This document shows, piece by piece, positions 34,766-37,635 of a stretch of DNA of 42,666 nt. Origin of the DNA: Thermoleophilia bacterium (GTDB lineage Bacteria > Actinomycetota > Thermoleophilia > Gaiellales > Gaiellaceae); contig JAOUHF010000008.1 of NCBI GenBank assembly GCA_029865325.1, forward strand, positions 1 through 42,666, given 5' to 3'. Every line of letters begins with the position of its first letter. Within the stretch, counting starts at the first letter, position 1. Under the pieces are notes generated by a model. It worked only from the letters and a program-made list of their open reading frames with translations. It was not told where the DNA came from and made no database searches. Made by a program: the position numbers and the translations under genes.

Positions 34766-35686
34766 CTAGTAGGCGACCGCGCCGCGGCCGGTCTCGACCG
34801 CGTGGCGCTGCTCGTCGGCGCGATACGACGAGCGCACGAGCGGGCCCGAGAACACCGACCCGAACCCGAGCGCCTCGCCCTGCTCGCGGAACCAGCGGAA
34901 CTCTTCCGGGTGAACCCAGCGGTCGATCTCCGCGTGCTTCGGCGTGGGTTGTAGGTACTGGCCGATCGTGACGACGTCGACGTCGTGGGCTCTGAGATCT
35001 CGCATCGTGTCGACGACCTCGTCGTTCGTCTCGCCGAGGCCGACGATGATCCCCGATTTCGTCATCACTCGATACACCGCGAGCTCCTTGACCCGCCGCA
35101 GGAGCCAGAGCGCCTTGTCGTAGCTCGCCTTCGCTCCACGCATTCGCGCGTGGAGGCGGCGAACGGTCTCGATGTTGTGGCCGAAGACGTCGGGACGTGC
35201 TGCGAGCACGGTCGCGAGCGCCTCTTCCTCGATGTCCAGGAAGTCCGGCGTGAGGATCTCGACGGTCGACTCCGGGAGCTTCCGCTGGAGAGCTCTGATC
35301 GTGGCTGCGTAGTGCCCGGCACCGCGATCGGGGACATCGTCGCGGTCGACCGAGGTGACGACGACGTGCGAGAGCCCCATCTGCGCGGCGGCTTGGGCGA
35401 GACGGAGCGGCTCGAGCGGGTCGGGCGGCGAGTCCGGCTTCCCCGAATGGACGTCGCAGTAGCGGCACGCGCGCGTGCAGGTGTCGCCGAGGATCTGGAA
35501 GGTCGCGGTTCCGCGGCCCCAGCACTCACCGATGTTCGGGCAGCGCGCCTCCTCGCAGATCGTGTGTAGCCCTCCCTGCCGCAGGAGGCCCTTCACCTCG
35601 AAGTAGCGCGAGTTCACACTCGGCGCGCGCACCTTCATCCATTCGGGACGGCGCGGGCGCTCCGCGACGGGGAGCGACTTCTCCAT
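34766..35686 (-). CDS. lipA: Lipoyl synthase
   Basis: A radical SAM enzyme (306 aa) that inserts two sulfurs into octanoyl groups on E2 and GcvH proteins. The auxiliary cluster cysteines are 44, 49 and 55 in CEEARCPNIGEC, and the radical SAM triad is C70-x3-C74-x2-C77 in CTRACRYC. The C-terminal LVRSSYRAD supplies the conserved serine ligand. ATG 35686 has no ribosome binding site but TAGACT lies 8 nt upstream, so a leaderless transcript is likely. Its partner lipB and an E2 gene lie within 4 kb. Confidence 0.97.
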   Translation of the reverse strand: MEKSLPVAERPRRPEWMKVRAPSVNSRYFEVKGLLRQGGLHTICEEARCPNIGECWGRGTATFQILGDTCTRACRYCDVHSGKPDSPPDPLEPLRLAQAAAQMGLSHVVVTSVDRDDVPDRGAGHYAATIRALQRKLPESTVEILTPDFLDIEEEALATVLAARPDVFGHNIETVRRLHARMRGAKASYDKALWLLRRVKELAVYRVMTKSGIIVGLGETNDEVVDTMRDLRAHDVDVVTIGQYLQPTPKHAEIDRWVHPEEFRWFREQGEALGFGSVFSGPLVRSSYRADEQRHAVETGRGAVAY

Positions 35687-35693
35687 TGCGAGT

Positions 35694-35700
35694 TAGTCTA
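35694..35700. promoter_or_regulatory. Overlapping divergent -10 boxes (TAGTCT / TAGACT) for the cupin gene and lipA
   Basis: On the + strand TAGTCT (35694-35699) ends 7 nt before GTG 35707. On the - strand TAGACT (35700-35695) ends 8 nt before ATG 35686. The two boxes share five bases, because TAGTCTA is nearly palindromic. Two RNA polymerases could not occupy both at once, so the genes may be expressed in competition. Confidence 0.55.
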
Positions 35701-35706
35701 GAGCCC

Positions 35707-36243
35707 GTGGTACCCGAAGCTCCCCTCGAGCACAGCGATCACGGCGTGTTTCCCGTCGGAGACGGCTGGTTCGTCGTGAACGCCTGCGAGGCGCAGTGGT
35801 TCGAGAGCGAAGGCCTCGGGTTCTACGCGCCGTTCGAGGGCGAGAACGCACCGTTCGGCGAGCTCGGTTTCAATCTGAACATCCTGCGCCCGGGCGAGCC
35901 GAGCTGCATGTACCACGCCGAGGAGACGCAGGAGGACTTCCTCGTGCTCGCGGGTGAATGCATCCTGATCGTCGAGGGGCAGGAGCGAGGGCTCCGCGCG
36001 TGGGACTTCGTGCATTGCCCGCCGTGGACGGAGCACGTCTTCGTCGGCTCAGGCGACGGCCCCTGTCTCATCCTGGCGGTGGGTGCTCGCCAGAGGGGTC
36101 GCGGTCTTCGCTACCGCGTCGACGAGGTTGCGCTGAAACACGGGGCCGGCGTCGAGAAGGAGACGACGGATCCGAAGGAGGCCTACTCGCGCTTCCCCGA
36201 GCCCAAGCCGGTTCGCTGCCCGGACGAGTTCCCTAGCGGCTAG
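35707..36243 (+). CDS. Cupin-domain protein
   Basis: A single small-barrel cupin (178 aa from GTG 35707). The first cupin motif region reads LRPGEPSCMYHAEETQEDFLVLAGE, with His and Glu in place for a metal, and the second reads AWDFVHCPPWTEHVFVGSGDGPCLILAV. Such stand-alone cupins may be enzymes, binding proteins or sugar isomerase-like; no function is assignable. An in-frame TTG at 35686 is open too, but it would place the -10 box within the gene. The 3' end overlaps lipB by 11 nt. Confidence 0.85.
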   Translation: MVPEAPLEHSDHGVFPVGDGWFVVNACEAQWFESEGLGFYAPFEGENAPFGELGFNLNILRPGEPSCMYHAEETQEDFLVLAGECILIVEGQERGLRAWDFVHCPPWTEHVFVGSGDGPCLILAVGARQRGRGLRYRVDEVALKHGAGVEKETTDPKEAYSRFPEPKPVRCPDEFPSG

Positions 36244-36958
36244 CCAGGGACGCGTGGATCCTCTGTGGCCAGAGACCCGCGCGGTCGTCCGCAGGTAGCT
36301 CCTCGAAGTCGAGCTCGAACACCTCTGCGCATGCCTCGACTGCCGCAGGCCGCACGTCGTCGACGGTGATTGGGCGTTGGAGTTCTCGCGCCATCGTCGT
36401 GAAGGCGGCGTCCTCGAGTCCGCAGGCCGTGATCCATTCGGTGAAGGGAGCAGGATCGAGGTCGACGTTGAGCGCGTAGCCGTGCGTCGTCACCCAACGG
36501 GACACGTGCACTCCGATCGACGCGATCTTCCGTGGCCCCTGGCCGCCGCCGGGCGGCATCCAGACGCCGGTGAGACCTTCGATCCGACGCCCGTCCAGCG
36601 CGAACGCCGCGAGCGTGCGAATCAGCGCTTCCTCGAGGGTGCGGACGTAGAGCTTCACGTCCTTCCCGTGGTTCACGAGATCGAGGATCGGGTAGCAGAC
36701 GAGCTGCCCAGGACCATGGAACGTCGACTTGCCGCCGCGGTCGGTCTCGGCGATCTCGACCTCCGCGCTCTCCGGAATGTGGAGCTCACGGCCGGTCTCG
36801 GTTCGGCGGCCGAGGGTGACCACCGGCGGGTGCTCGACGAAGACGACCGTCTCCGGGATCGCCCCCTGCGAGACGGCTCCGGCGAGCGAGCGCTGCAGCG
36901 CGAATGCGTCGCTGTACGGCACGAGGCCGAGGTTCATCACGTACGCGCCGCGTCTCAC
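36233..36958 (-). CDS. lipB: Octanoyl-[acyl-carrier-protein]:protein octanoyltransferase
   Basis: The protein (241 aa) moves octanoate from ACP to lipoyl domains, the step before LipA. The signature RGGKSTFHGPGQLVCYPILDL is at residues 74-94, with the catalytic Lys144 in RKIASIGVHV and Cys179 in ITACGLEDAAFTTM. GTG 36958 overlaps the stop of the AlkD-like gene (GTGA); ATG 36937 is a possible later start. The E2 component encoded upstream on the same strand is a natural substrate. Confidence 0.95.
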   Translation of the reverse strand: MRRGAYVMNLGLVPYSDAFALQRSLAGAVSQGAIPETVVFVEHPPVVTLGRRTETGRELHIPESAEVEIAETDRGGKSTFHGPGQLVCYPILDLVNHGKDVKLYVRTLEEALIRTLAAFALDGRRIEGLTGVWMPPGGGQGPRKIASIGVHVSRWVTTHGYALNVDLDPAPFTEWITACGLEDAAFTTMARELQRPITVDDVRPAAVEACAEVFELDFEELPADDRAGLWPQRIHASLASR

Positions 36959-37635
36959 GGAAGGAGCCTAGCCAGGTTCTTCGTCGCCTCGCGGCGCGAG
37001 AGCGGGCTCAGCCGATCGGCATGCTCGCGCACGTAGCGATCCACCTCGATGGGGTCATGCCACGCGTAGTCCCTCAGCGCCCAGCCGATCGCCTTGCGGA
37101 CGAAGAACTCCGGGTCGTCGAGGTTCGGCTCGATGCAGTCGTACAGGAGTGCGAGGTCGGTCCGCTCCTTGAAGCCGAGCTGGGAGATGATCGATACGCG
37201 GCGTTTCCACATGTTCCCGTCGCGGCTCCATGCGCGCATGTCCTCCGCGACTGACGGGTCGCGCTGGAGCAAGCGGCCGACCTTGCGGGCGATCGTGTCG
37301 ACGAGATCCCACCACGCACCTTCGACGATGAGCCGCTCGAGGAGGGTGAGCGAGACCCATTGCCGGTAGCGATCGAGCAGTGCAAGGGCGGTGTAGCGGT
37401 CCTCTCGGAATTCCGCGTCGTCCCAGAGGTCTCGGAGCTCGGCGGCGAACTCTTTTTCGGTCTCGATCGGATGCGCGTCGAAGACGCTGCGCCACGCGCG
37501 GCGAAGGTCAGGCGTGCGGACGCCGAGGTACGGTAGCTCGCTCTTCATGTACGCCTGCGCTCCGACCGCATACGCGGGGTCGCGCGTCCTCTCGATAGCA
37601 GCGTGGAACTCCGGGCGCAGAACGCCATGGGTCAC
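36955..37635 (-). CDS. AlkD-like DNA alkylation repair glycosylase
   Basis: An ALK/HEAT-repeat DNA glycosylase family protein (226 aa). The AlkD family's key WWD-x-V-D motif is at residues 108-113, with Asp113 matching the B. cereus AlkD catalytic residue number, and Arg145/Arg146 in MWKRRVSII. FFVRKAIGWALRDYA near 188-202 is also typical. Family members remove positively charged alkylated bases. The GTG start is only 30 nt after the E2 stop, and its stop overlaps lipB, so it sits between lipoate-related genes for no obvious functional reason. Confidence 0.9.
   Translation of the reverse strand: MTHGVLRPEFHAAIERTRDPAYAVGAQAYMKSELPYLGVRTPDLRRAWRSVFDAHPIETEKEFAAELRDLWDDAEFREDRYTALALLDRYRQWVSLTLLERLIVEGAWWDLVDTIARKVGRLLQRDPSVAEDMRAWSRDGNMWKRRVSIISQLGFKERTDLALLYDCIEPNLDDPEFFVRKAIGWALRDYAWHDPIEVDRYVREHADRLSPLSRREATKNLARLLP

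Follow-up and report, generated by a model that had tools for sequence, protein, structure and literature searches.

Bidirectional promoters have been described in which the -11A and -7T of both promoters are reciprocally paired; their start sites are most often 18 bp apart, with 10 and 23 bp as further frequent distances (PMC12825309, PMC10268837). In five such promoters of E. coli, basal activity was too low for competition. Activating one direction can nevertheless repress the other, and interference was observed only then (PMC12825309). For leaderless genes of Actinobacteria, PMC3160421 places a TANNNT motif about 12 bp upstream of the start; Gaiellaceae is not among the matches for the named terms in that source.

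The window analysed here is a 42.7-kb stretch of Gaiellaceae (Actinomycetota) MAG DNA, in which lipA and a cupin gene diverge from coding regions separated by only 20 bp (Table 1). Between them lies TAGTCTA, read directly as T35694, A35695, G35696, T35697, C35698, T35699 and A35700, which is likely to be the symmetric -10 of a bidirectional promoter serving two leaderless genes. In the sequence, TAGTCT on the plus strand lies 7 nt from the cupin GTG (35707-35709), and TAGACT on the minus strand (35700-35695) lies 8 nt from the lipA ATG (first base 35686). Lying on opposite strands, the hexamers have five bases in common: T35694 is the sole base of the cupin box outside the lipA box, and A35700 serves lipA alone. 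The earlier note had described both boxes and their five shared bases, and this reading is exact; its naming of the genes likewise holds on the Pfam matches (Radical_SAM and LIAS_N for lipA, Cupin_2 for the cupin). In named genomes, lipA has its close matches in Gaiellaceae/Thermoleophilia MAGs. A35695 and T35699 of TAGTCT pair with the T and the A of TAGACT in the TANNNTA register, which is the reciprocal -11A/-7T pairing. The start codons are 21 bp apart, not far from the 18 and 23 bp known for such promoters, and this would also be the start-site distance if both mRNAs begin at the start codon.

Table 1. Positions of the predicted promoter elements and adjacent genes in the window, and of the shared-box gene pairs of genome G010.
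Feature	Position	Strand	Basis
lipA, lipoyl synthase, 306 aa, ATG	34766..35686	-	ORF; Pfam Radical_SAM + LIAS_N
Cupin gene, 178 aa, GTG	35707..36243	+	ORF; Pfam Cupin_2, E 9e-11
lipB, octanoyltransferase, tail to tail with the cupin gene	36233..36958	-	ORF; Pfam LplA-B_cat
TAGTCTA, candidate symmetric shared -10 core, 7 bases	35694..35700	.	Sequence; same in five genus members
TAGTCT, predicted cupin-gene -10	35694..35699	+	7 nt before GTG in 5/5 pairs
TAGACT, predicted lipA -10	35695..35700	-	Box kept in 63/81 distinct lipA upstream regions
Four G010 shared-box pairs	L196:14962/14985; G010 contig 1180956/1180977; L260:7649/7670; L262:15965/15986		

No recognisable or conserved -35 was found on either side of TAGTCTA. 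A 7-bp dyad, GGGGAGC (35669-35675) and GCTCCCC (35719-35725), is centred exactly on 35697 with its arms at a -35-like distance on both sides. It was rejected as a symmetric -35, the arms being coding and the pair not being conserved in relatives. The in-frame TTG at 35686 was also discarded as the cupin start, its frame not being conserved among relatives: because the start-to-start gap differs by 1-2 nt among five relatives, not by multiples of three, and GTG-GTN-CC is conserved, GTG was retained.

TANNNTA occurs three times in the window, TAGTCTA being the only one flanked by divergent start codons at leaderless spacing. In simulation, such an arrangement has a chance of about 6e-4 per 20-nt divergent gap, which, over all divergent pairs of a genome, is not decisive alone; conservation was therefore tested. 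lipA and the cupin gene stand back to back in five species of the genus, with TAGTCTA identical in all of them; the distance to the cupin GTG is exactly 7 nt in every pair, and the lipA-side spacing ranges from 7 to 9 nt. The five pairs form one clade, so that T35694 counts as a single gain; in the cupin tree, four of the five fall with G007 in one supported clade, G006, whose cupin frame is broken, having been left out. Selection is the likely reason for the retention of TAGTCTA in the genus, since the motif was kept although the lipA fourfold sites are well diverged, with pairwise identities of 0.48-0.65 among the five species and no invariant site among the 24 T-bearing and 31 A-bearing ones. 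Rarity by itself would be insufficient; it is on this conservation that a chance match was rejected. The check that the earlier note had proposed beforehand, conservation of the overlap in related genomes, thus came out in its favour within the genus (five out of five).

The distribution of the box among lipA loci indicates which base serves which gene. The lipA box was found in 63 of 81 distinct lipA upstream regions, family-wide and with or without a cupin gene; the usual exception is a lipA directly following lipB. Of the 19 loci with lipB directly upstream in the same direction (within about 100 nt), 16 lack it and 3 carry it, whereas 60 of the 62 other loci have it (Fisher p = 6e-13, G007 set aside), although in some of the 62 other loci lipB is merely not within the fetched flank. 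Because it is kept without a cupin and mostly lost where lipB directly precedes, the box is predicted to be first of all a lipA promoter. At position 35694, T is present in all five pairs of the genus and in none of the 58 other boxed lipA loci, which carry C, G or A. This pattern is best read as one gain of T in the genus pairs, which was then kept.

Other arrangements of the two genes provide a further view of the cupin side. G007 groups with this genome in the cupin tree and has a PIN-domain/RHH (vapBC-like) gene pair between lipA and the cupin gene (L038:820-1466). There, TACAAT precedes the lipA ATG by 7 nt and TACCCT precedes the cupin GTG by 7 nt; in the alignment, the T, A and T of the cupin side are retained, and A35700, the lipA-only base, is now T. 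This one case shows that the two predicted promoters are able to exist apart. At the level of sequence comparison, the box, its spacing and conservation, the lineage-specific T and the separate boxes after separation are shown. Where this gene pair occurs in other genera, the cupin side carries CAGTCT or CAGTGT, and some of these pairs have the ATG 9-10 nt away. Of 39 cupin relatives away from lipA, 27 have NANNNT at 6-8 nt from the start, versus 0-7 at other spacings, so that CAGTCT may also work, more weakly.

Cupins back to back with lipA on CAGTCTA or CAGTGTA in other genera were noted at L041, L042, L046, L066, L081, L161 and L165. Across the order, a genome may carry as many as seven copies of the cupin family (35707-36243; G000:C152:2206-2751). 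Those adjacent to lipA do not make up a single clade: they form several clusters in the cupin tree, with at least 6 label changes, and hence reflect either repeated capture or repeated loss. Searches of the PDB gave only weak structure matches to assorted cupins, none of them linking the cupin to lipoate. It could be imagined that lipA repeatedly captures cupins back to back on its -10 because their product antagonises or responds to lipoate metabolism, the shared box then coupling the two genes inversely with no need of a regulator protein, but we accord this idea little probability.

The spacing of both hexamers agrees with a wider leaderless architecture in the genus. In G010, a closed genome of the same genus surveyed over 1.6 of its 2.62 Mb with gene calls from a simple home-made caller, TANNNT lies 6-10 nt before a candidate start in 349 of 1372 genes, versus 27-51 at control spacings; about 25% of G010 genes therefore look leaderless. 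Both genes have a leaderless-spaced TANNNT in 37 of 175 divergent pairs, and in four of the 175 TANNNTA is shared in the same register, the two starts lying 21-23 bp from each other; none of the 175 pairs shares TANNNTA at control spacings. The genes of these four pairs seem ordinary: two glycosyltransferases, a 486-aa protein with a UvrC-like protein (by eye only), a 2-phosphosulfolactate phosphatase with a rhomboid, and a formiminotransferase with an ABC transporter. The suggestion of the earlier note that spacings of 7 and 8 nt fit leaderless starts is backed by the spacing in relatives and by this genus-wide enrichment. Taken comparatively, it is credible that both boxes are leaderless -10 elements, and lipA and the cupin gene are probably both leaderless.

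We propose that sigma-bound RNA polymerase would load on TAGTCTA in either orientation. Facing left, it would read TAGACT and start the lipA mRNA at or beside the ATG; facing right, it would read TAGTCT and start the cupin mRNA at or beside the GTG, slightly longer discriminators giving the 21-bp start distance. The box would have originated as lipA's own -10, conserved in the family, and in the lineage where the cupin gene lies back to back with lipA the gain of T at 35694 would have completed a cupin -10 on the same base pairs. We infer where transcription actually starts, which sigma factor acts and how strong the two promoters are.

The conservation of AGTCTA for lipA where there is no cupin at all, lipA alone imposing the five-base core, raises the question of whether only lipA uses the box, with the cupin match as a side effect of TANACT being nearly symmetric, and with transcription of the cupin gene coming from elsewhere. 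T35694 is dispensable for lipA yet fixed only in the genus pairs, exactly 7 nt separate box and cupin start in every one of the five, and this box recurs at an equal distance both in cupin paralogues elsewhere and in the separated G007 cupin; we thus consider an exclusive use by lipA quite improbable. Still less plausible, to the point of being very improbable, is that the near-palindrome CTAGTCTAG serves a DNA-binding regulator as its operator instead of being a promoter core: a 9-bp near-palindrome is present in four of the five species, but its outer bases are variable, and dozens of lipA loci that lack the palindrome conserve AGTCTA at promoter spacing.

Transcription from lipB must also be considered. 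To the right of the cupin gene, lipB and then a DNA_alkylation protein are encoded on the minus strand, and the cupin gene (+) and lipB (-) share 11 nt (36233-36243) where they meet tail to tail. Transcripts of lipB may therefore run antisense through the cupin gene into lipA. lipA could accordingly be served mainly by lipB read-through, the local box being minor, and in favour of this the overlap leaves no room for a terminator outside coding sequence, lipB directly precedes lipA in other genomes, and the layout has been described in S. aureus (PMC7154746). The retention of the lipA box where lipB is not directly upstream suggests, on the contrary, that the box is needed, and we regard a mainly lipB-driven lipA as unlikely. 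Read-through from lipB and a local lipA box are in any case compatible. In the stretch 36959-36988, TAGGCT was also observed 6 nt upstream of the lipB GTG (first base 36958), within the 3′ end of the DNA_alkylation gene; because of this position, lipB may have its own predicted leaderless promoter.

With TAGTCTA taken as a symmetric -10, the regulatory meaning of the overlap is a separate matter. The 7-bp geometry implies steric exclusion, as stated for such promoters in PMC12825309, and in this respect the earlier note was right that one polymerase at a time can occupy the site, which would limit maximum output. Its further proposal of an intrinsic switch between lipoate synthesis and the cupin protein is unsupported, considering the basal activity without competition in E. 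coli (PMC12825309), the CAGTCT boxes outside the genus and the separate G007 boxes. That polymerase bound for one gene shuts the other, giving reciprocal control of lipoate and cupin, would fit a geometry that forbids two polymerases at once, the retention of the overlap in five species and the repression of the opposite direction upon activation in E. coli (PMC12825309). Such control is unlikely, however: the basal activity of the tested bidirectional promoters was too low to compete (PMC12825309), the G007 boxes are separate, the cupin-side box is weaker in other genera, no activator site was recognised at the lipA/cupin promoter, and lipB may read through into lipA. Because interference in E. 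coli appeared only upon activation, exclusion would amount to a switch only at high occupancy or with one of the two directions activated; at ordinary activity, exclusion would probably not set a regulatory switch.

Since the cupin gene sits on the other strand between lipB and lipA, the locus resembles a noncontiguous operon in its layout. As in the menE-menC-MW1733-ytkD type (PMC7154746), the opposite-strand gene lies between genes of the same pathway; here, in contrast, lipA has its own conserved promoter box and co-transcription of lipB and lipA is putative. The leaderless genes of Actinobacteria described in PMC3160421 are alike in that TANNNT precedes the start by 6-10 nt in about a quarter of genes in this genus, and differ in that here two divergent leaderless genes are predicted to rely on one box.

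The closest likeness is to the symmetric shared -10 promoters of Warman, Grainger and colleagues (PMC12825309, PMC10268837), with which this locus has in common one -10 that can be read on both strands, the reciprocal -11A/-7T, predicted starts about 20 bp apart and the possibility of mRNA in two directions. It differs in that both mRNAs are probably leaderless with coding regions only 20 bp apart, that the predicted start distance is 21 bp and not the commonest 18, and that the prediction comes from comparison and not from mapped 5′ ends. On this comparative evidence, the lipA/cupin site is probably a new, conserved case within a known class, that of bidirectional promoters with a symmetric -10. 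It would carry this concept over to leaderless genes standing back to back in an uncultured family of Actinomycetota, where promoters of this kind would allow coding regions to be 20 bp apart, and it offers a clean evolutionary case, in which the bases needed for each gene can be read from relatives with one gene, with both, or with both separated. If true, the locus would be useful as a model and would not represent a new mechanism.
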